A DNA stretch of 63,130 bases from Hydrogenophaga sp. (GTDB lineage: Bacteria; Pseudomonadota; Gammaproteobacteria; Burkholderiales; Burkholderiaceae_C), in the NCBI GenBank assembly GCA_016790705.1, contig JAEUOT010000048.1, forward strand, positions 1-63,130, written 5' to 3'. A program made the translations under genes and the position numbers. Positions within the stretch are counted from its first letter, which is position 1; each line of letters opens with the position of its first letter. Under the pieces are notes generated by a model that worked only from the letters and a program-made list of their open reading frames with translations, had not been told where the DNA came from and searched no databases. This document shows, piece after piece, positions 26,823 through 38,738 of the stretch.

Positions 26823-27926
26823 ATGAGCAAATCCCTGCGCCTCTCCGAAAAATGGTTCCACCGCGGCCTGTGGCTGGTGGCTTTCCTGTTCGCCTGGTTC
26901 CTGACCGGCCTGGGCAGCACCATCGTCGGCGACCTGCCCAAGGTCGAACAGACCCGCTCGCTGGACGATTTCATGGATCCGCAGCGAACGCCGGCGCTCA
27001 AGGCGGCGATCAAGACCGCCGAGCAGGTTTCCGAGGAGGCCCAGGCGGCACTGGAGCAGGCGCAGCTCAAGTTGCAGACAGCGCGCGCCGACAACCGGGC
27101 CGCCCGCGAAACCTTCGACAACTGGCTGGCGACGCGCCGCGCGACCGAGCGTTCCGAACAGGACGAGGAGGTGCTCAAGCGCACGCGTGAACTCGACGGA
27201 CTGCGCAAGGCCGAGCGCGAAGCGTTCGCGGCGGTCGAGAAGCAGCAGCAGGTGGCGCTGGACGCCCGTCAGTCGCAGCAGCGCGCGCAGGCTGAGCTGG
27301 GTGCGCTGCGCGAGGCCGCCAGCGACGCGTTCGAGAAAGCCCGCCGGGCCCAGGAGCTCCGGGTGTTCGGGTACCGGCTGGCGCTGACCTTGCCGCTGCT
27401 GGTGGTGGCCGGGTACCTGTTCAGGAAGCACCGCCAGGGCGCGTCCTGGCCGTTCGTCTGGGGCTTCATCTTCTTCGCGCTGTTCGCGTTCTTTGTCGAG
27501 CTGGTGCCCTATCTGCCCAGTTACGGCGGCTATGTGCGCTACATCGTGGGCATCGTGCTGACGGTGATCGGCGGACGCTATGCGATCGGTGCGCTGCAGC
27601 GCTATCTGGAGAAGCAGAAGGCGGTCGAGGCCTTGCCGGACACGCAGCGGCGCAAGGAGATGGATTACGACCTGGCGCAGACGCGGCTGGGCAAGAACGT
27701 GTGCCCGGGCTGCGAACGCACGGTCGATCTCAAGGACGGCAAGACCGATTTCTGCCCGCACTGTGGCCTGTGTCTGTTCGATCGCTGCGGTCACTGCAGC
27801 ACCCGCAAGAGCGCGTTTGCGCGGTACTGTTTTTCCTGCGGCGCGACCGCCAGCGGCCCGTCGGTCGCGAACCCGGCGCCCGGGGCGGTCACCGCCCCGG
27901 CTCCCGACGCGCAGGGGGCGGTCTGA
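26823..27926 (+). CDS. Membrane coiled-coil protein with C-terminal double zinc ribbon
   Basis: 367 residues. A membrane helix at about 13-36 is followed by a coiled coil of about 110 residues rich in Ala, Glu, Gln and Arg (58-175), three or four further membrane helices (185-270), and a cytoplasmic C-terminal zinc-ribbon pair (about 294-340) built from CPGC, CPHCG, CGHC and CFSCG knuckles. Such proteins are sometimes labelled serine endopeptidase in Burkholderiales without visible support; no protease motif is seen here. The stop overlaps the ATG of the ketosynthase-like gene (ATGTGG within TGATG), so it may lead the biosynthetic cassette transcript. Confidence 0.7.
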   Translation: MSKSLRLSEKWFHRGLWLVAFLFAWFLTGLGSTIVGDLPKVEQTRSLDDFMDPQRTPALKAAIKTAEQVSEEAQAALEQAQLKLQTARADNRAARETFDNWLATRRATERSEQDEEVLKRTRELDGLRKAEREAFAAVEKQQQVALDARQSQQRAQAELGALREAASDAFEKARRAQELRVFGYRLALTLPLLVVAGYLFRKHRQGASWPFVWGFIFFALFAFFVELVPYLPSYGGYVRYIVGIVLTVIGGRYAIGALQRYLEKQKAVEALPDTQRRKEMDYDLAQTRLGKNVCPGCERTVDLKDGKTDFCPHCGLCLFDRCGHCSTRKSAFARYCFSCGATASGPSVANPAPGAVTAPAPDAQGAV

Positions 27927-28966
27927 TGTGGTCCGAACCTGTGGCGAGAGGGGCCACACCGCGTGCCGCGCCGGCCGCGCGCGCGGTCTGCCTGCTGGGA
28001 ACCGGTCATGCCGTGCCGTCCGGGGTGCTCAAGAGCGAGGCGGTGGATCACCGGCTGGGCCTGGCGCCGGGCGCCATCGAGCGGCTGTCCGGTGTGCGTC
28101 AGCGACCGGTGGCGTCCCGCACCGACACCGCGGCGCGGCTGGGTGCCCAGGCGGCGCGGTGTGCGCTGGAGGCCGCCGGTCTGGGCCTGGGTGACATCGA
28201 CTGCCTGGTCGCGGCCAGCGGCACCATGGACCAGGGCATGCCCAGCAATGCCGCGCTGATCCACCGTGAGCTGGGCTTGCGGGGCGTGCCGGGGTTCGAT
28301 GTCAACGCGAGCTGCCTGGGGTTCATCGCCGCGCTGGACACGCTGTCGTGGGCGGTGCAGGCCGGGCGGTACCGGCGGGTGCTGGTGGTGGCCGCCGACA
28401 TCGCCTCCTGCGGGCTGGACTGGAACCACCTGGAGGCCAGCGCAATCTTTGGCGACGGCGCGGCGGCGGCGGTGCTCGCGCCTTCGGGCGACGGCGTGGG
28501 CGGGCGCATTCTCGCGGCCGATCTGCTCACGATCTCCGAAGGGGCGCACCTGTGCCAGATCCCTGCCGGCGGATCGCGCCATCACCCCACGCGCATCGAC
28601 GGCGCGTTCGAGCCGCTGGCGCTGTTCCACATGGACGGCCCGCGGGTGTTCAAGCTGGCCACGCGCTACCTGCCCGACTTCCTGGACCGGTTGCTGGGCT
28701 CGGCCGGCGTGACGCTGCGGGACATCGACTGGGTGGTGCCGCACCAGGCCAGCCGGCTGGCCATGACGCACCTCAGCCGGCGTCTGGGGATGGGCGGTGA
28801 GCGTGTGGTCGACATCTTTTCGGACCACGGCAACCAGATCGCGGCGTCGCTGCCCACGGCGCTGGACACGGCGGTGCGCGACGGCCGCATCCGCCGCGGG
28901 CACCGCTTGTTGTTGCTGGGCACCGGCGCGGGGCTATCGCTCGGTGGCGTGGTGATGGAGTTCTGA
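27926..28966 (+). CDS. KAS III-like condensing enzyme (FabH/OleA-type thiolase fold)
   Basis: 346 residues. The beta-ketoacyl-ACP synthase III catalytic triad is intact: Cys130 in VNASCLGF, His273 in VPHQAS and Asn303 in DHGNQIAAS, with the glycine-rich GTGAGLSLGGVVMEF end. Such enzymes condense an acyl thioester with malonyl-ACP, or join two acyl-CoAs as OleA does. It is first in a run of seven genes joined by overlaps of 1-14 bases. The genome is expected to have a housekeeping FabH elsewhere near fabD, so this one is probably specialised. No acyl-carrier-protein gene is present in the cassette. Confidence 0.88.
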   Translation: MWSEPVARGATPRAAPAARAVCLLGTGHAVPSGVLKSEAVDHRLGLAPGAIERLSGVRQRPVASRTDTAARLGAQAARCALEAAGLGLGDIDCLVAASGTMDQGMPSNAALIHRELGLRGVPGFDVNASCLGFIAALDTLSWAVQAGRYRRVLVVAADIASCGLDWNHLEASAIFGDGAAAAVLAPSGDGVGGRILAADLLTISEGAHLCQIPAGGSRHHPTRIDGAFEPLALFHMDGPRVFKLATRYLPDFLDRLLGSAGVTLRDIDWVVPHQASRLAMTHLSRRLGMGGERVVDIFSDHGNQIAASLPTALDTAVRDGRIRRGHRLLLLGTGAGLSLGGVVMEF

Positions 28967-29973
28967 TGCGAATGAAGGTGGTGGTGACCGGCGGCACCGG
29001 TTTTCTGGGGCGCCATGTGGTGTGGCGGCTGGCGGCCGAGGGGGTGAACGTGGTGTTCACCGGGCGCAATCCGCAGGCGGCCCAGCAGGTCTGGGACGGC
29101 GCGGCGGCGAACGTGTCCTGGGTGCCGCTGGAACACGGCACGCCGACGTCGGCCGATACGCTGGCCGAGATCGCCTGCGGCGCCGATGCGGTGGTGCATT
29201 GCGCGGCCCTGTCCTCGCCGTGGGGGCGGCGGCGCGATTTCGAGCGCGCCAACCTCGACAGCACGGCGGAGGTGCTGGTGGCCTGCCAGCAGCAGCGCGT
29301 GCGACGGCTGGTCCATGTGTCCACGCCCAGCCTCTACTTCGGGTTCGCCGACCGGCGCGACCTGCGAGAGGACGCGCCGCTGCCGACGCCGGCCAACCAC
29401 TATGTGCGGACCAAGCGCGCGGCCGAGGAGCTGATCCGCGAGAACCCGCCGCCGGAGGTGGTGGTGCTGCGTCCGCGGGCCCTGTTCGGTCCCTGGGACC
29501 AGACGCTGGTGCCGCGCCTGCTGCGCGTGATGAAGAGCGGTCCGGTGCCGCTCATGCGGGGCGGGCAGGCGCTGGCCGACCTGACCTACATCGACAACGC
29601 CGTGCAGGCGGTCTGGCTGGCGCTGACGCAGCCGCTGGAGCGACCGTTCTCGGTCTACAACGTGACCAACGGCGAGCCGCGGCCGCTGGAGGAGCTGCTC
29701 GCGCTGATGGCCAGGGAGTTCCGCATCCCGTTGCGCACGCGAGCGGTGTCCTGGCCGCTGGTGTCGCTGGGCGCGCGCGCGATCGAGGCGGCCTACACGG
29801 TCGCGGGCGGCGGTCGCGAGCCGCCGATCACGCGCTACAGCGCCGGCGTGCTGGCCTTCGACCAGACGCTGGACATCGAGGCGCTGCGCACCGAGCTGGG
29901 CTACCGGCCGACGGTGGGTCTGGAGGAGGGCATCCGGCGCCACGCGCGCTGGTGGCGGGAGCAGCGCAGATGA
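28966..29973 (+). CDS. NAD(P)-dependent epimerase/3-beta-HSD-like reductase (SDR)
   Basis: 335 residues of the extended short-chain dehydrogenase family. The dinucleotide motif VTGGTGFLGRHVV is at residues 7-19, the active-site serine region at VHVSTPSLYF, and the catalytic Y146-x3-K150 in NHYVRTKRAAEELI. The DLTYIDNAVQAVWLAL segment is typical of NAD-dependent epimerases and 3-beta-hydroxysteroid dehydrogenases; OleD, which reduces the product of OleA, is in the same group. Pairing with a KAS III-like gene suggests reduction of a beta-keto product. The ATG overlaps the previous stop (TGATG). Confidence 0.85.
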   Translation: MRMKVVVTGGTGFLGRHVVWRLAAEGVNVVFTGRNPQAAQQVWDGAAANVSWVPLEHGTPTSADTLAEIACGADAVVHCAALSSPWGRRRDFERANLDSTAEVLVACQQQRVRRLVHVSTPSLYFGFADRRDLREDAPLPTPANHYVRTKRAAEELIRENPPPEVVVLRPRALFGPWDQTLVPRLLRVMKSGPVPLMRGGQALADLTYIDNAVQAVWLALTQPLERPFSVYNVTNGEPRPLEELLALMAREFRIPLRTRAVSWPLVSLGARAIEAAYTVAGGGREPPITRYSAGVLAFDQTLDIEALRTELGYRPTVGLEEGIRRHARWWREQRR

Positions 29974-30818
29974 GCGGCGTGCGGCTGCATCTGCTGCGGG
30001 TCGGGGCCTGTCGCCACCTGGCGTGCATGGCGGCGCGGGGGGACGCCTGGTCGGTGATCGACTTTCCGGCGCTGTGCGGGCTGATCCACCATCCGTCGCG
30101 GGGATGGCTGCTCTACGACACGGGCTACGCGTCGCATTTCATGGACGCGACGGCGTCGTGGCCGGAGCGGCTGTACCGCACCGTGCTGCCGGTGCACCTG
30201 CCGCCGTCCGAGGTGCTGGCGACGCAGCTCGCCGCGCTCGGGCTGTCGGCGTCCGATGTGTCGCATCTCGTGCTCTCGCATTTCCATGGCGACCATGTCG
30301 CCGGGCTGAAGGATTTTCCGGCGGCGGCGCTGTACGCCCTCGGCGCCGACGTCGAGCAGATTCAGGGCATGGCGGGGCATCGCTGGCGGGCCGCCGCCGC
30401 CGGCATGCTGCCGGGGCTGTTGCCGGCCGACTTCGGCCAGCGCCTGACCCGGGTGGACACGCTGTCGCGGCGTGCGTTGCCGGGCTGGATGGCGCCGCTG
30501 GCGGAGGGCTTCGACCTGTTCGGCGATGGCAGTGTGCTGGGGGTGCCGCTGCCCGGCCACAGCGCGGGACAACTGGGCCTGTTCCTGCCGGATGTGGACG
30601 GGCGGCCGGTGCTGCTGGCGGGCGATGCCTGCTGGTCGCTGCCGGCGCTGCGTGAAGGCCGATTGCCGGCCTGGCCCACGCTGGCGGTCACGCACGACCG
30701 GCGCCGTTACCGGGAGACCTTCGAGGGCCTGCGGCGGCTGGTGAACCGTGAGCCGGCGCTGAGCCTGCTGCCCTCGCACTGCACCCCGGCCTGGGAGGCG
30801 TACCGCGATGGGCGCTGA
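29970..30818 (+). CDS. MBL-fold metallo-hydrolase
   Basis: 282 residues with the metallo-beta-lactamase signature HFHGDH (His104, His106, Asp108, His109), a further GHSAGQLGLFL histidine, the bridging-type Asp in LLAGDACWSL, and a C-terminal LLPSHCTPAW histidine. This is the full dinuclear zinc set of lactonase-like and thioesterase-like members. In the cassette it could hydrolyse a thioester or lactone. The start overlaps the reductase stop in ATGA, showing coupled translation. Confidence 0.88.
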   Translation: MSGVRLHLLRVGACRHLACMAARGDAWSVIDFPALCGLIHHPSRGWLLYDTGYASHFMDATASWPERLYRTVLPVHLPPSEVLATQLAALGLSASDVSHLVLSHFHGDHVAGLKDFPAAALYALGADVEQIQGMAGHRWRAAAAGMLPGLLPADFGQRLTRVDTLSRRALPGWMAPLAEGFDLFGDGSVLGVPLPGHSAGQLGLFLPDVDGRPVLLAGDACWSLPALREGRLPAWPTLAVTHDRRRYRETFEGLRRLVNREPALSLLPSHCTPAWEAYRDGR

Positions 30819-32145
30819 AGCCTTGGCGATCGCGGCGCACTTTGCGCGCACCCGCTGGGGTTCCGCGCCAGGCAGCCGGGACGCCCTGGAGGCCCACCAG
30901 AGACGCGCGTTGCGGCGCTTCCTGCGCGAGGTGTTGCCGCGCGCGCCGATGTACCGTGATCGCCGGGTCCGTGACCTGACCGACCTGCCCGTGATGGACA
31001 AGTCGGCGCTGATGGGCGAGTTCGATGCGCGCAACACGCGCGGCATCCGGCTGGAGGACGCGATGGCGCTGGCGCTGCGGGCCGAGGCGTCGCGCGACTT
31101 CACGCCCACGATCAGCGACGTCACCGTCGGACTCTCCAGCGGCACCTCGGGCAACCGCGGGGTGTTCCTGGTCAGTGCGGCCGAGCGGCGGCGCTGGGCC
31201 GGCATCCTGCTGGCGCGGGCCCTGCCGCCCGCCCTGACGCCGCGCCTGCTCACGCCCTGGGCGCCTCCAATCCGCGTCGCCTTCTTCCTGCGCGCCAACA
31301 GCAATCTGTACGAAACCCTGGGCAGCCGGCGCATCCGCTTTGCCTTCTTCGATCTGCTGGCGGGTGTGGAGGCGGCGCTGCCCGCGTTGCGTGCCCTGCG
31401 ACCGGACGTGCTCGTCGGAACGCCCCAACTGCTGCGGGCACTGGCGGCCGAGCAGCGGGCCGGTCGGCTGGACATCCGGCCTTCGCACATTCTGTCGGTC
31501 GCCGAGGTGCTGGAGGCGCAGGATGCCGCGGCAGTGGAACAGGCCTTCGGGGTGCGCCCGCACCAGTTGTACCAGGCGACCGAGGGTTTCCTGGGCTACA
31601 CCTGCGCCCACGGAGGGCTGCACCTGAACGAGCGTTTCGTGCACATCGAGCCGCAGTGGCTGGATGAAGCGCGCACGCGCTTCCAGCCGGTCGTCACGGA
31701 CTTCACCCGCGAGACGCAACTGATCGTGCGCTACCGGCTCAACGATGTGCTGCGCCTGGCCGATGCACCCTGTGCGTGCGGCAGTCCGGAGCGCACGCTG
31801 GCCGCGATCGAGGGGCGCTGTGACGAGGTGCTCTGGCTGCCCGCGCGCGACAGCGCCCGGGCGGTGCCGGTGTTTCCGGACGCGGTGCGGCGCTGCATGG
31901 CCCTGGCCGGGCCGGCGGTCCGGGAGTTCGAGGTGGTGCAGCAAGGCATGCGCTGGCACGTGAGGCTGGCCGCGAGTCCGGGTGCGCAGGTCCTGGTCGT
32001 CAGGGCCATGGCCGAGCTGTGGGCACGGCTGGGCGTTCGTCCGCCCGAGCTGGTGTTCGGCGACTGGCAGGCGCAGGACCTGCACCTCAAGCGCCGACGG
32101 GTGAGGCTGGCGCAACTGCCGCAGGGGTTGTCATGCACGTTCTGA
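30808..32145 (+). CDS. Adenylate-forming enzyme, F390-synthetase-related
   Basis: 445 residues. The P-loop of AMP-forming enzymes is recognisable as GLSSGTSGNRG (109-118), with TPWAPPIRVAFFLR, LVGTPQLLRALAAEQ and the acceptor-loop region YQATEGFLGYTCAHGGLHLN, followed by IVRYRLNDVLRLADAPCACG. This pattern belongs to the clade related to coenzyme F390 synthetase and phenylacetate-CoA ligase, known as a putative adenylate-forming family (I recall TIGR02304). It activates a carboxylate as an acyl-adenylate; substrate unknown. It overlaps the MBL gene by 11 bases and the ATP-grasp gene by 13. Confidence 0.85.
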   Translation: MGAEALAIAAHFARTRWGSAPGSRDALEAHQRRALRRFLREVLPRAPMYRDRRVRDLTDLPVMDKSALMGEFDARNTRGIRLEDAMALALRAEASRDFTPTISDVTVGLSSGTSGNRGVFLVSAAERRRWAGILLARALPPALTPRLLTPWAPPIRVAFFLRANSNLYETLGSRRIRFAFFDLLAGVEAALPALRALRPDVLVGTPQLLRALAAEQRAGRLDIRPSHILSVAEVLEAQDAAAVEQAFGVRPHQLYQATEGFLGYTCAHGGLHLNERFVHIEPQWLDEARTRFQPVVTDFTRETQLIVRYRLNDVLRLADAPCACGSPERTLAAIEGRCDEVLWLPARDSARAVPVFPDAVRRCMALAGPAVREFEVVQQGMRWHVRLAASPGAQVLVVRAMAELWARLGVRPPELVFGDWQAQDLHLKRRRVRLAQLPQGLSCTF

Positions 32146-33278
32146 TTCTGGGTGCGCGCGCACCGGCCTGTCTGGAGTGGGCGAGGGTGTTCGATGCGGC
32201 CGGCTGGCGCGTCACGGTGGCCGACTCGCTGGCCTGGCCGCTGGCGCGTGCCAGCCGCGCGGCGCACGCCTTCCTGCGACTGCCGGAGCCGCGGCGTTCG
32301 CCCGCGCGCTGGATCGACGCGATCGCTGCGGCGGTGCGTCGCGAACACATCGACCTGGTGCTGCCCACCTGCGAGGAGGCGTTCTATCTCTCCTACGGCA
32401 AGGACCGCATTCCCTGCCGTGTGGCGACCAGCGACTTCGATCTGATGCACCGGCTGCACCACAAGGGATGGTTCGCCGACATGACCCGCGACTGGCCGGT
32501 GCAGGCGCCGCCGACGCGGCTGCTGCAATCGCCGGATGCGCTGACGCCGCTGCACGACAGCGCCCGTGACTGGGTGTTCAAGCCGGCCTACTCGCGGTTC
32601 GCGACGCAGACCCTGATCCGGCCCGAACCGCATCGCCTGGCCGAGGTGCGGCCGACCCCCGACCAGCCCTGGGTCGCCCAGCGCTTCGTGGCGGGGCGGG
32701 AGCACTGCAGCTACAGCCTGCTGGTCGACGGGCGCGTGACCGCGCACGCCTGCTATCACCCGCGCTACCGGGTCGGGGGAGGCTCCGGCATCTGGTTCGA
32801 GCCGACCGACCCGGCGCCGGTGCGTGCGCTGGTCGAGCGCCTGGGGCGTGACACCGGGTACACCGGGCAGGTCGCGTTCGATGTGATCGAGGACGATGAC
32901 GGACGCTGCCATGTGCTGGAGTGCAACCCGCGCGCGACCAGCGGCGTGCACCTGCTGGGCGCGCGGCCGGACGCGCTGGTGGCGGCGCTGCTGGGTGAGG
33001 GAGACGGGGTCCTGGCCAGCGATGGCGCGCCCCGTTCGGTGGCGCTGGCCATGCTGTTGTTTGCGGCGCCGCGCCACGGTTTCACGCGCCGCTTCTGGCG
33101 CGACTACGGGGTCGCCGCCGATGTGGTGACGCGACCCGGCGACCGGGCGCCGCTGCCGGCGCAGTGGCTGGGCCTGGTCGAGGTCGCCGGGCGGGCGCTG
33201 ACGCGCCGGGTCGGACTGCTGCCGGCGGCGACCGCGGACATCGAGTGGGACGGCCATCCGATGGAGTCGATGGCGTGA
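32133..33278 (+). CDS. ATP-grasp ligase-like protein
   Basis: 381 residues. An N-terminal Rossmann-like preATP-grasp domain (MHVLILGARAPACLEWARVF) is followed by the ATP-grasp: WVFKPAYSR (148-155) as the lysine strand, VAQRFVAGREHCSYSLLVDG, and the metal-binding HVLECNPRATSG with the E-x-N-P-R core at 263-267. ATP-grasp enzymes join a carboxylate to an amine or thiol through an acyl-phosphate. With an adenylating enzyme next door, this may add an amino acid or other amine to the product. Start overlaps the preceding stop. Confidence 0.85.
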   Translation: MHVLILGARAPACLEWARVFDAAGWRVTVADSLAWPLARASRAAHAFLRLPEPRRSPARWIDAIAAAVRREHIDLVLPTCEEAFYLSYGKDRIPCRVATSDFDLMHRLHHKGWFADMTRDWPVQAPPTRLLQSPDALTPLHDSARDWVFKPAYSRFATQTLIRPEPHRLAEVRPTPDQPWVAQRFVAGREHCSYSLLVDGRVTAHACYHPRYRVGGGSGIWFEPTDPAPVRALVERLGRDTGYTGQVAFDVIEDDDGRCHVLECNPRATSGVHLLGARPDALVAALLGEGDGVLASDGAPRSVALAMLLFAAPRHGFTRRFWRDYGVAADVVTRPGDRAPLPAQWLGLVEVAGRALTRRVGLLPAATADIEWDGHPMESMA

Positions 33279-34384
33279 GGTGGGCCGAGGCCGATCCGGT
33301 CGGCGATGGGGTCACGGCCTATGTCCGCGATGCGGCGCCCGACATCGCGAATGTGCGCACCCGCATGCGCGTGCTCGATACCGGGACCCGGCGCTGGCCG
33401 GTGAGCGTCAACGATGGCGACGATCCGCCCGGCAACGGCTACGTGGTCTCGCCGTGCACCGCCTACGCGCGGTATGCCGATGCAGAGATCGTTCGCCTGG
33501 GGCGTCCGGCGCTGACGTGGCCGTTGCGCGCGCTCGCCCGCGGACTCGGACTGTGGCTGGACCGGGCGGCGCTGGACCGGCTGGTCACGGTCAACAACTG
33601 GCTGCTCTCGACCAATGTCTACCCGGCCGGCTGGGATGGCAGCGACCTGCCGGCGATCACGCGCTTTCTGCTGGCCGAATACCCTGACCACGCGCTGGCC
33701 TGGCGATCGCTGAACCGGCAGGCCAACGGCGCGCTGATGGAGCGGCTGGCGTCCCTGGGCTATCTCGCGGTGCCGAGCCGGCAGGTGTATCTCTTCGACG
33801 GGCGCGACGGTCAGGACGCTGCGTTCCTGCGCCACCACAACACGCGGCTGGACGCCGCGCTGTGGCGCCACACGCCGTACCGCGTCGTCGACGGCCGCGC
33901 CCTGGACGCGGACGGGCTGCAGCGCGTGGTCGATCTGTACGGCCGGCTGTACCTGGACAAGTACTCGCGGCTGAACCCGCAGTACGGCGTGCGCTGGATG
34001 GCGTCGGGGGTTCGCGATGGCTGGCTCGACCTGCGGGCGCTGCAAGCCCCGGAGGGCAGGATCGACGGGGTGGTGGGCTGGTTCGGCAATGGCGACTGGC
34101 TGACCGCGCCGGTGGTGGGCTACGACACCGCGCTGCCGGCCTCGCTCGGGCTGTACCGGCTGATCACGCGGCTGTGCCTGCAGGAAACGGCGCAGCGCCG
34201 CTGCCGCCTGAACTTCAGTTCGGGCGCCGCCCACTTCAAGCGCCTGCGCGGCGGCGTGCCCGATATCGAATACACGATGGTGAAGGTGGATCACCTGCCC
34301 CCCGCGCGACAACGCGTCTGGCGCGTGCTGCGTGCGACGCTGGAGCGGGTGGCGGTGCCTCTGATGCAACGATGGAAGCTGTGA
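33275..34384 (+). CDS. GNAT/FemAB-like acyltransferase
   Basis: 369 residues from a GTG overlapping the ATP-grasp stop (GTGA). The C-terminal half carries a GNAT-like fold as judged from DLYGRLYLDKYSRLNPQYGV, GRIDGVVGWFGNGDWLTAPV, GYDTALPASLGLYRLITRLC and CRLNFSSGAAHFKRLRGGVP, similar to FemAB and peptidoglycan-bridge-type aminoacyltransferases. The N-terminal half is less clear. In FemAB enzymes the donor is aminoacyl-tRNA, but here the donor and acceptor are unknown. Coupled to both neighbours, hence part of the cassette. Family assignment is tentative. Confidence 0.65.
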   Translation: MRWAEADPVGDGVTAYVRDAAPDIANVRTRMRVLDTGTRRWPVSVNDGDDPPGNGYVVSPCTAYARYADAEIVRLGRPALTWPLRALARGLGLWLDRAALDRLVTVNNWLLSTNVYPAGWDGSDLPAITRFLLAEYPDHALAWRSLNRQANGALMERLASLGYLAVPSRQVYLFDGRDGQDAAFLRHHNTRLDAALWRHTPYRVVDGRALDADGLQRVVDLYGRLYLDKYSRLNPQYGVRWMASGVRDGWLDLRALQAPEGRIDGVVGWFGNGDWLTAPVVGYDTALPASLGLYRLITRLCLQETAQRRCRLNFSSGAAHFKRLRGGVPDIEYTMVKVDHLPPARQRVWRVLRATLERVAVPLMQRWKL

Positions 34385-35415
34385 ACAACGAAACAAACCC
34401 GGGTGCGCCGGACCCGCAGTCGGCCTGGTGGCCGCTGGCGCTGAGCCGGGAGCTGGTGCCCGGGCGTCCGCTCGCGCGGCGCCTGCACGGCCTGCCGCTG
34501 GTGCTGTTCCGCGATGCGGCGGGGCGTGCCGCTGCCCTGCACGACCGCTGTCCGCACCGCCACGCGCCGCTGTCGGCGGGGCGGGTCTGCGCGGGCGAGC
34601 TGCAGTGCCCCTACCACGGCTGGCGCTTTGACGCCGCAGGGCGCTGCACTGCGGTGCCGGGGTTGGCGTCGCACCGCCCGGGTCAGACGCCGCTGCTGGC
34701 GGCGCCGGCGACGCAGGAGGTGCATGGACTGGTCTGGGTCTGCCGGGGCACACCGGTGGCCGGTCACGGGCCGGTGGCGCCGTCGGTGACCGAGGGCGTG
34801 GACAGCTTTTTCATGACCGAGCGGGTGCGCTGCGGCGTGGCCGAGGCGGCGGAGAACTTCCTGGACGGCTTCCACACGCACTTTGTCCACGCCGGCTGGA
34901 TCCGCCGCGACGCGCGTCGGCAGACCGTGCAGGCGACGGTGCGCCGGCTGCCGGATGGCATCGAGGCGCGGTACGGCAACGAAGGACTGCAGTCCGGCGT
35001 GATCTCGCGCTGGCTCGAAGGCAGCCGCAGCGAGAGCATGGGGCGGTTTCGCTGGCCGGGGGTGGCCGAGATCGAATACCGGGGCGCGCGCGGGCTGAAC
35101 CTGCTGATCACCGCATGGCTCACGCCGGAAGACGACGGGATGCTGCGGGTCCATGCGCGCGTGGCGACGCGGCGCGGCTGGCTGCCCGCCGCCGTCAAGC
35201 GCGCCGCGCTGCGTCGGCTGTTTGGCGTCATCCTGCGGCAGGACAAGGCCATCCTGGAACAGGCCAGCGCCAACGCCGCCGTGTTCGCGGTCCGGGGCGC
35301 GCTGCCGCCGGAGCTGCACTCGCCGCTGGACCTGCTCGGCCCGTCGATCAGGGGCATGCTCGACGGCCGCTGGCCCGAGGCCTCGGTCGAGCGCGAGTGC
35401 ACGGTGCAGCTGTGA
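34372..35415 (+). CDS. Rieske non-haem iron oxygenase (cassette oxygenase)
   Basis: 347 residues. The [2Fe-2S] Rieske ligands are Cys60-x-His62 and Cys79-x2-His82 (CPHRHAP, CPYHGW). The mononuclear iron site is D165-x2-H168-x4-H173 (NFLDGFHTHFVHAGW). This is a single-component-type oxygenase like those of the VanA/PaO group; electron donors must come from elsewhere. It could hydroxylate, desaturate or demethylate the cassette product. An alternative GTG start at 34381 would overlap the previous stop in GTGA, the pattern seen one gene upstream. Last gene of the cassette, nine bases from the convergent MFS gene. Confidence 0.88.
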   Translation: MEAVNNETNPGAPDPQSAWWPLALSRELVPGRPLARRLHGLPLVLFRDAAGRAAALHDRCPHRHAPLSAGRVCAGELQCPYHGWRFDAAGRCTAVPGLASHRPGQTPLLAAPATQEVHGLVWVCRGTPVAGHGPVAPSVTEGVDSFFMTERVRCGVAEAAENFLDGFHTHFVHAGWIRRDARRQTVQATVRRLPDGIEARYGNEGLQSGVISRWLEGSRSESMGRFRWPGVAEIEYRGARGLNLLITAWLTPEDDGMLRVHARVATRRGWLPAAVKRAALRRLFGVILRQDKAILEQASANAAVFAVRGALPPELHSPLDLLGPSIRGMLDGRWPEASVERECTVQL

Positions 35416-35424
35416 CGCGCAGGC

Positions 35425-36597
35425 TCAGGCCCGCTCGCGCACCAGCCGCCACAACGCCCACAGCCCCAGCGCAGGGCCGAGCGCCAGCCCGGTGAGCAGC
35501 CAGCCCAGCGCGACCGCGCGCGTGAGCTCGACGAACAGCAGGATGCTGGCGATGCTGATGCCAAAGCCGATGCTGTTGGTCAGCGTGAGCACGCTGCCCA
35601 CCGCCTGCGGCGGGGCGTTGCGCGCGGTCAGGGCCGAGAACTGCGGCGAGTCGCCCGAGACGGTGATGCCCCAGAGCAGCAGCCAGCCGTAGAACAGCGC
35701 ATCGGGTGCATGCATCAGCGCCGGCGAGAGCAGGCAGCACAGGCCGCTGGTGGCCAACTGCGCGCCGGCCACGCGGGCGCTGCCGAATCGCGGCACCAGC
35801 CAGCCGCCACCCACACAGCCCAGCGCGCCGGCCCCCAGCAGCACGAAGGCCGCCCAGGACAGGGCGGTGCCCTCAAGCCGAGTGGCCAGGATCAGCGGCA
35901 TCAGCACCCACAGCGTGTAGAGCTCCCACATGTGGCCGAAATAGCCAAGAACCGAACTGCGCACGCGGGCGTCGGTGACCAGGGTCGCCAGGGCGCGCAA
36001 CTGAAGGGTGGTCACGCGCGCCACCGCGCCGGGGGGCTCCGGCAGCAGCACGAACAGCAAGATGCCGCCCGCCGCCGCCAGCGCCGCGACGCCCAGCATC
36101 AGCGTGGGCCAGGGCAGCGCGTCGCCCATGGCCCGCAGCGCATGCGCGCTGGCCGAGCCGATCACCAGCGCGCCGATCAGGTAGCCCAGGGCCGGCCCGA
36201 GCCCGCGCGGGAACCACTGCGCGGCGATCTTCATGCCGACCGGGTAGATGCCCGCAAGGAAGAAGCCGGTGGCGAAGCGCCAGGCCAGCAGCGCGCCGAA
36301 TTCCGACACCATGGCCCAGGCGCCCACCGTGCAGCCGGCGCCGGCGAGCGCGCAGATCAGGAACACGCGGCGCGGCGGGAAACGGTCGGCGATCGCCAGC
36401 AGGGCGAACACCAGGGTGCCGACGATGAAGCCGAACTGCAGCGACGACGTCAGGGTGCCGACCGCGGTGGCCGGCCAGCCGAACGCCCGCTGCAGGTCCG
36501 GCATCACCGCATTGACCGCGAACCACAGCGAGGTGCCCAGAAACTGGGCCAGCACCAGCACGGGCAGGACGTGGCGAGGCGCAGCGAGTGTGTTCAC
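35425..36597 (-). CDS. MFS transporter
   Basis: 390 residues, twelve membrane helices. The start GTG at 36597 gives MNTLAAPRHVLPVLVLAQFL. Typical major-facilitator loop motifs appear as ADRFPPRRVFLICALAGAG (loop 2-3) and AWRFATGFFLAGIYPVGMKI (helix 4). No long N-terminal soluble domain is needed. It converges on the biosynthetic cassette and may export its product or be unrelated; the substrate cannot be told. Its GTG overlaps the stop of the upstream membrane-protein gene (GTGA), so these two are cotranscribed. Confidence 0.87.
   Translation of the reverse strand: MNTLAAPRHVLPVLVLAQFLGTSLWFAVNAVMPDLQRAFGWPATAVGTLTSSLQFGFIVGTLVFALLAIADRFPPRRVFLICALAGAGCTVGAWAMVSEFGALLAWRFATGFFLAGIYPVGMKIAAQWFPRGLGPALGYLIGALVIGSASAHALRAMGDALPWPTLMLGVAALAAAGGILLFVLLPEPPGAVARVTTLQLRALATLVTDARVRSSVLGYFGHMWELYTLWVLMPLILATRLEGTALSWAAFVLLGAGALGCVGGGWLVPRFGSARVAGAQLATSGLCCLLSPALMHAPDALFYGWLLLWGITVSGDSPQFSALTARNAPPQAVGSVLTLTNSIGFGISIASILLFVELTRAVALGWLLTGLALGPALGLWALWRLVRERA

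Positions 36598-37108: not shown

Positions 37109-38738
<1,630 letters not shown>

Follow-up and report, generated by a model that had tools for sequence, protein, structure and literature searches.

A portable seven-gene cassette in Hydrogenophaga that splits into a ketosynthase core and a tailoring module

Do seven overlapping genes that run from a ketosynthase to a Rieske oxygenase in the genome of Hydrogenophaga sp. belong together, and if so, what might they make? We examined them in a stretch of 63,130 nucleotides (GenBank assembly GCA_016790705.1, contig JAEUOT010000048.1, positions 1 to 63,130 of the forward strand; hereafter the window). The seven-gene cassette is real and portable, and it splits into two parts: a core of a β-ketoacyl synthase III (KAS III), a short-chain dehydrogenase/reductase (SDR), a metallo-β-lactamase-fold (MBL) hydrolase and an F390 synthetase-related ligase, and a tailoring part of an ATP-grasp ligase, a GCN5-related N-acetyltransferase (GNAT) fold protein and a Rieske oxygenase. 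Our leading interpretation, to which we give a probability of roughly 0.45, is that of a laterally acquired two-part cassette that makes a hydroxylated, aminoacylated, fatty-acid-derived, lipid-like metabolite. The seven genes are as follows, with positions in the window.

27926..28966, + strand: KAS III ketosynthase, 346 aa, grouping with MxnB/CorB, Cys130-His273-Asn303
28966..29973, + strand: SDR/epimerase-fold reductase, 335 aa, closest to the NCBIfam model OleD, with a score below its cut-off
29970..30818, + strand: MBL-fold hydrolase, 282 aa, closest to lactonases, with conserved metal ligands
30808..32145, + strand: F390 synthetase-related adenylating enzyme, 445 aa, TIGR02304, PaaK-like
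32133..33278, + strand: ATP-grasp ligase, 381 aa, a homologue of a protein in MysC position, with PylC as the closest solved fold
33275..34384, + strand: tandem-GNAT fold protein, 369 aa, GTG start, predicted Fem/MprF/Sba18-like fold
34372..35415, + strand: Rieske non-heme iron oxygenase, 347 aa, with SxtT and dicamba demethylase as the closest solved structures

All seven genes lie on the + strand at 27926-35415, and all six internal junctions overlap, in gene order by 1, 4, 11, 13, 4, and 13 bp, which bears out the positions and overlaps given in the initial annotation of this DNA. That annotation also reported no acyl carrier protein (ACP), and indeed no ACP gene was found on the cassette contig; the only three PP-binding places in the genome are on other contigs, 63 and 2. 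Two ACP-like places on contig 2 (10926-12651), about 1.4 kb apart, possibly belong to another fatty-acid-type cluster.

To follow the genes across bacteria, a species-level genome collection was scanned with an alignment of the ATP-grasp protein. The best 80 of 578 confirmed relatives, many of them from Mesorhizobium and Pseudomonas, were mapped together with five loci from a phylum search and the window itself, giving 86 loci (loci L041 and L042 were dropped before counting as copies of L077 and L092, and a gene was called present when it passed set score limits). All seven genes are found in 58 of the 86 loci, window included, in five phyla as judged from record titles; the homologues are thus kept together in other genomes, as the initial annotation's cassette idea requires. 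Carriers of the full set include Thiothrix, many Pseudomonas and Mesorhizobium, Roseibium, Asticcacaulis, and Paraburkholderia, as well as a Bdellovibrionales metagenome-assembled genome (MAG; L078), Cytophaga (L115), Paenibacillus (L123), and an Eremiobacterota MAG (L104). Of the 28 remaining loci, several are truncated by contig ends, and others are without some of the genes in intact DNA. Wherever both members of a pair are found, they are on the same strand for KAS and SDR (72/72 loci), SDR and MBL (73/73), MBL and F390 (69/69), and GNAT and Rieske (65/65); the ATP-grasp gene is on the strand opposite the F390 gene in 31 of 69. Two Planctomycetes loci encode SDR and MBL as a single reading frame of 631 and 660 aa (L116:8094-9986 and L120:8014-9993), which ties the SDR and MBL steps together. 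An apparent ATP-grasp-GNAT fusion in L075 was set aside, since its frame crosses an assembly gap of X. In Paenibacillus chitinolyticus (L123:4632-14208), the cassette has an ATP-grasp gene behind KAS and another behind F390.

The cassette also has sharp edges. Among 43 of the 86 loci, hand-picked to thin the rhizobia and compared over open reading frames of at least 80 aa, the families that recur in more than seven loci are the seven cassette genes and other-frame reading frames lying almost wholly inside them, and it is this count that defines the boundary. We reject a chance cluster on the same-strand counts above and on the KAS search of other genomes and the KAS tree described below.

The division into core and tailoring part is seen where one occurs without the other. 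Four genomes of a single family, which we take for enterobacteria, have the core with none of the last three genes in 13-19 kb and no ATP-grasp match in the phylum search; at two of these presumed enterobacterial loci, frames that by eye resemble membrane desaturases lie downstream of the core. The core of Escherichia coli sits between narI and tyrosine tRNA genes and is followed by genes annotated as a PAP2 phosphatase, a sterol desaturase family protein, and an acyl-CoA desaturase, a seven-gene run of its own (L172:6674-13555 in Nissle 1917; L148:7191-14072). The sterol-desaturase-family protein matches the model of the ornithine-lipid hydroxylase OlsE weakly (67 of 475 bits). The E. coli core is matched in 672 of 5426 complete genomes, Nissle 1917 included, over at least 80% of the stretch in 671. 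On plasmids of Ketogulonicigenium and Paracoccus, the four core genes stand beside TetR and sulfotransferase genes, and Fusobacterium vincentii (L150:3123-10186) has all four in the order SDR-MBL-F390-KAS. The converse is found on a Deinococcus plasmid, in Xanthocytophaga, and in a Neisseriaceae MAG, where ATP-grasp and GNAT genes occur without the core in the DNA fetched. Preceding the F. vincentii core are a weak SDR match and a frame that by eye resembles a GT2 glycosyltransferase. Homologues also lie spaced apart on large plasmids of Pseudomonas: pMPPla107 (L132:7783-11371) has F390 and ATP-grasp, and pBASL58 has KAS, SDR, MBL, F390, and ATP-grasp with other genes between them.

The collection scan started from the ATP-grasp protein, and to reduce this bias 398 phylum genomes were searched with the models TIGR02304 (ligase) and PRK07204 (KAS); these searches and the ATP-grasp search of the same kind of sample share hits and are not mutually independent. 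At E<=1e-40, TIGR02304 hits 10 of the 398 genomes, our own included, and all 10 have the KAS-SDR-MBL-F390 arrangement; seven of them pass the family cut-off. At E<=1e-75, PRK07204 hits 12 of the 398, the same ten plus two, and its curated cut-off (402) is passed by none of the 398. An SDR homologue is in the fetched stretch of all 12 KAS-positive genomes, and all four core genes are there in 10; in the remaining two, L169 has SDR and MBL homologues near KAS without F390, and L170 has an SDR homologue followed by the contig end. The ATP-grasp search at E<=1e-10 finds 12 of 398 genomes, again including our own, and six of these have the cassette. Among 14 named control genomes, only Deinobacterium chartae matches both TIGR02304 and PRK07204 at strict limits, and it probably carries the core.

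By its sequence, the KAS III groups with MxnB and CorB: it falls in their tree group, has the Cys-His-Asn triad, and has an aliphatic residue at the position of the OleA glutamate. Cys130, His273, and Asn303 are invariant in 27 aligned rows; here and for the MBL, Rieske, ligase, and ATP-grasp proteins below, conserved residues are presumed to play the catalytic roles familiar from their families. Among solved structures, MxnB (4v2p) and CorB (4yuc) give the KAS family profile its highest scores, 339 and 327 bits; the best FabH entry reaches 290, the PQS enzyme (3h76) 187, and the group of OleA entries that includes 3s23 134.5. In a tree of 37 rows, whose references include only two FabH and two OleA-type rows (one of the latter over and one under the PRK09258 cut-off), the cassette and core KAS form one group with MxnB and CorB (support 98/96), apart from the FabH and OleA-type rows. 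Within this group, MxnB and CorB are placed inside the cassette rows, closest to those from Planctomycetes, with only moderate support (88/78 and 89/77) and a long-branch row adjacent. Where OleA has E117 and PpyS has E105, all 31 cassette and core KAS rows carry M, I, L, or V and none carries Glu; the residue is V in MxnB and CorB, F in the two FabH, and E in the two OleA-type rows. In the portion of their work drawn on here, Kresovic and others describe this residue as a catalytic glutamate reaching into the partner's pocket, report that PpyS E105A loses its product, place MxnB/CorB inside the FabH clade, and give V at this position in MxnB and CorB, as here (PMC4578411).

The KAS III stays under the cut-offs of these curated models: its best, PRK07204 (NF005541), scores 366.8 bits under a cut-off of 402, TIGR00747 (FabH) gives 226.9 of 292.1, and PRK09258 (OleA) gives 119.3 of 285. 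A second KAS III (39% identity) lies on contig 63 between frames read by eye as PlsX and FabD. That the cassette gene could be the housekeeping FabH is rejected on the score below the TIGR00747 cut-off, the plsX-fabH-fabD context of the other KAS III, and the separation in the tree; in the initial annotation, the cassette idea was to fail if the KAS III clustered with housekeeping FabH and the chromosome had no other, and both the second gene and the tree speak against this. Its comparison of the KAS III-SDR pair to OleA and OleD survives in part. The OleA half is rejected by the missing glutamate (0/31) and the tree placement with MxnB/CorB, and the OleD half holds: the best two of 96 NCBIfam models for the SDR are OleD models, with 181 and 151 bits and the next at 74, all the same far under the cut-offs of 580 (181 vs 580 for NF042422). 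The SDR is also 34% identical to the reductase from an OleA-type locus.

The MBL protein keeps the metal-ligand pattern HxHxDH...H...D...H of acyl-homoserine lactone (AHL) lactonases, with H104, H106, D108, H109, H197, D219, and H270 invariant in 26 rows. Its profile is closest to AHL lactonases (best match 9khq, 9.8e-29), with 4-pyridoxolactonase further down, and its scores are below the AttM and AiiA cut-offs (72 of 390 and 32 of 375 bits). The ligase had been assigned to a putative adenylate-forming family, and it does pass TIGR02304 (405.2 vs 251.9 bits); its profile is closest to PaaK-type CoA ligases, and G108/S110/G112/G115, E259, D313, R337, and K428 are invariant in 24 rows. No OleB or OleC model is among the matches listed for the MBL protein and the ligase.

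Turning to the tailoring proteins, the ATP-grasp ligase is nearest PRK06849, under its cut-off (366 of 406 bits), and K150, E263, and N265 are invariant in 26 rows. Its profile has no close solved relative by sequence, and the predicted model (pLDDT 95) has PylC as its nearest solved fold. The profile aligns over 339 columns at 24% identity (hhalign probability 100; the E-value is not database-scaled) with a Nostoc gene that is taken as MysC from its neighbors only, in a cluster of DHQ-synthase, O-methyltransferase, ATP-grasp, and D-Ala-D-Ala ligase genes. The window's GNAT protein by itself matches no Pfam or NCBIfam family, but of the 26 relatives aligned with it, 7 hit the GNAT model PF13480 (E<=0.1). 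A search of PDB sequences gave nothing useful, and the fold was therefore predicted instead. The AlphaFold2 model (pLDDT 94.5) has a tandem GNAT fold whose best matches include Sba18/Sbb17, MprF, A-PGS/L-PGS, and FemX, plus ordinary acetyltransferases (Foldseek 2.6e-8 to Sba18, TM-score by query 0.47), with identities of 8-17% among the 50 fold matches listed. The Rieske profile is nearest SxtT and dicamba demethylase. Its CxH...CxxH cluster and iron site are present: C60, H62, C79, H82, H168, and D291 are invariant, and H173 is kept in at least 90%, of 25 rows, the iron ligands being what we take, from the family pattern, to be the 2-His-1-carboxylate set. The initial annotation had the ATP-grasp and GNAT proteins join an amine, and the two predicted folds fit such an amide- or ester-forming ligation.

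How did the cassette come to be in this genome? A search of 39 further genomes of the genus gave no KAS III match at E<=1e-60 in any of them. Of 60 relatives, only one, our own genome, scores above the TIGR02304 cut-off, and none of 35 congeners does. The contig belongs to the genus, since all 10 congeners compared match the flank with tgt, their best pieces being 84-90% identical in DNA sequence. The genes on either side of the cassette are genes of the site.

26823..27926, + strand: zinc-ribbon gene at the left edge, not a cassette gene
35425..36597, - strand: major facilitator superfamily (MFS) transporter at the right edge, found at this site in cassette-free congeners too, not part of the cassette

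The zinc-ribbon gene overlaps KAS III by 1 bp; it is in 0 of the 85 other mapped loci, yet in 5 of the 10 congeners searched. In four of these five congener regions, zinc-ribbon and MFS genes face each other with about 0.1-0.7 kb between aligned stretches, and in the fifth the MFS gene was not found; cassette genes were found in none of the five regions read. Thus, four congeners show the site without the cassette, which this genome has apparently gained recently by lateral transfer. The MFS protein, once proposed to export the product, is rejected as part of the cassette: it stands at the site in four of the five cassette-free congener regions and has no match at E<=1e-6 in the 85 other loci. 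The G+C content of the cassette, about 72-73%, exceeds the 63-70% of 4-kb windows at a distance from it, but native genes to its right come close to its value, and high G+C was therefore set aside as a sign of foreign origin. A search for mobile-element ends gave 19 direct-repeat families (>=14 nt) at 27600-35800, none of which frames the cassette. A stretch of about 29 bp between tgt and the next gene (window 38337-38365) has many further occurrences in this genome and its congeners and resembles a dispersed intergenic repeat.

What, then, could the cassette make? In the pathway that we favor, KAS III would take acyl and β-ketoacyl (or malonyl-type) thioesters from general fatty-acid metabolism and join two chains in a Claisen condensation of the MxnB/CorB type, independent of the glutamate. 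The OleD-like SDR would reduce the 3-oxo group, and the lactonase-type MBL protein would act on the same intermediate, as lactone or thioester, by hydrolysis or cyclization. The F390-like ligase would adenylate the resulting carboxyl for transfer, the MysC/PylC-like ATP-grasp ligase would attach an amine or amino acid, the Fem/MprF-like GNAT protein may supply one more aminoacyl group, with aminoacyl-tRNA as a possible donor, and hydroxylation would fall to the Rieske oxygenase. This chemistry is read from protein families, while the linkage, the parts list, and the active-site residues are observed. Several results weigh against it. GNAT is missing in three phylum loci, F390 in L076 and L101, and Rieske in the Pontibacillus and Paenibacillus urinalis plasmids, so that not every step can be obligatory, and 6 of the 12 ATP-grasp phylum genomes have no other cassette gene in the DNA fetched (19 kb, 17 kb, and about 4 kb in four cases). 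The TM-scores of the GNAT model are modest, at most 0.52 by query among the 50 matches listed, which makes the use of aminoacyl-tRNA uncertain. The lactonase ancestry of the MBL protein leaves its reaction unfixed, and a reducing SDR suits an OleA-type product better than a pyrone.

The last point bears on a different route, in which KAS III condenses two β-ketoacyl thioesters to a 4-hydroxy-2-pyrone or 1,3-dione, the MBL protein opens or closes a lactone, and the MysC-like ATP-grasp ligase activates an enol and swaps in an amine. Such an α-pyrone/vinylogous-acid pathway is rather unlikely in our view, even though the KAS profile scores best with MxnB and CorB, which sit among the cassette rows, the MBL profile is nearest lactonases, and the ATP-grasp ligase aligns with the Nostoc MysC-position gene. 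As the cited part of one report has it, MysC joins glycine to 4-deoxygadusol (PMC10510106). Against this route, a reductase that it does not need is beside KAS in 12 of 12 contexts, and the placing of MxnB/CorB among the cassette rows has only the moderate support given above. MxnB and CorB of the myxopyronin and corallopyronin pathways, the best solved KAS relatives, have the same triad, an aliphatic residue at the OleA-Glu position, and a place in one tree group with the cassette enzyme, but they join carrier-protein-bound chains in myxobacterial polyketide synthase pathways (for MxnB, see the relevant part of PMC5724707); here there is no ACP, and a reductase, an MBL protein, and a ligase come after KAS. 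The mycosporine-like amino acid pathway offers a similar mixture: the ATP-grasp ligase is homologous to that of the mysABCD-like Nostoc cluster, whereas the cassette has no DHQ/EEV synthase, O-methyltransferase, or MysD gene.

An OleABCD-type route to β-lactones or olefins, with the F390 ligase replacing OleC and the MBL protein replacing OleB, would likewise bring condensation, reduction, adenylation, and a hydrolase into one set and has an SDR nearest OleD in its favor. We judge it improbable, as the glutamate of OleA/PpyS, which both OleA-type rows have, occurs in none of the 31 KAS rows from cassettes and cores, the KAS III reaches 119 of 285 bits with PRK09258, and the OleB and OleC models are missing from the matches listed for the MBL protein and the ligase; these are PaaK/F390-like and MBL-fold proteins, outside the families of OleC and OleB. 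Just as doubtful is a role in membrane-lipid modification, in which the GNAT protein, as MprF does with phosphatidylglycerol, aminoacylates a new lipid anchor made by the core. The GNAT fold neighbors MprF, A-PGS, and L-PGS speak for this, as do the PAP2, sterol-desaturase-family (weak OlsE match), and acyl-CoA-desaturase genes beside the E. coli core, but a protein of 369 aa with one tandem-GNAT fold leaves no room for a membrane domain of the size found in MprF, and no conserved transporter gene stands beside the cassette. That the operon is degradative or detoxifying instead of biosynthetic seems very improbable indeed: catabolic pathways often contain Rieske oxygenases, MBL lactonases, and PaaK-like ligases, but KAS III, ATP-grasp, and Fem-like GNAT proteins are mostly anabolic families, and no other gene family, catabolic or otherwise, occurs in more than 7 of the 43 loci. 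Overall, the initial annotation is partly borne out, by the conserved cassette, the non-FabH ketosynthase, the TIGR02304 assignment, the ATP-grasp and GNAT folds, and the lack of an ACP, while the OleA homology and the MFS exporter have to be given up.

Every cassette protein can be assigned by sequence to a known superfamily, and one to a named, uncharacterized family, TIGR02304, of which the ligase is a member by score (405 of 252 bits). The highest-scoring TIGR02304 copy seen (755 bits) is that of the E. coli core cluster, which has no adjacent ATP-grasp, GNAT, or Rieske genes. With the Fem/MprF/Sba18-type aminoacyl-tRNA-dependent GNAT ligases, the GNAT protein has its predicted tandem-GNAT fold in common, at the low identities noted above. 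Predicted ATP-grasp/oxygenase-cupin operons also combine an ATP-grasp ligase with a Rieske-type protein, but they center on an oxygenase-cupin protein, and the part of that report cited here mentions no KAS III, SDR, MBL, or F390 ligase (PMC2922099). None of the papers listed in the literature searches, which covered few subscription journals, describes the seven-gene set or the core, and a description may exist elsewhere.

A wider proposal, tentative and with the odds somewhat against it, is that the core is the founding module of an unrecognized class of bacterial two-chain, lipid-like metabolites whose synthesis needs neither an ACP of its own nor the glutamate mechanism of OleA and is finished by interchangeable tailoring, with MxnB and CorB as later recruits. 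If this is true, the plug-ins of the core would be an ATP-grasp ligase, a tRNA-dependent GNAT protein, and a Rieske oxygenase here, desaturases in E. coli, and a sulfotransferase in Ketogulonicigenium and Paracoccus. The cassette combines a tight gene boundary and a modular logic with tractable carriers, E. coli Nissle 1917 for the core and Pseudomonas protegens for the full set, and the core is present in about one in eight of the complete E. coli genomes searched. Importantly, it gives the uncharacterized TIGR02304 family a genomic context and hints at the origin of the pyrone-forming ketosynthases of myxopyronin antibiotics.

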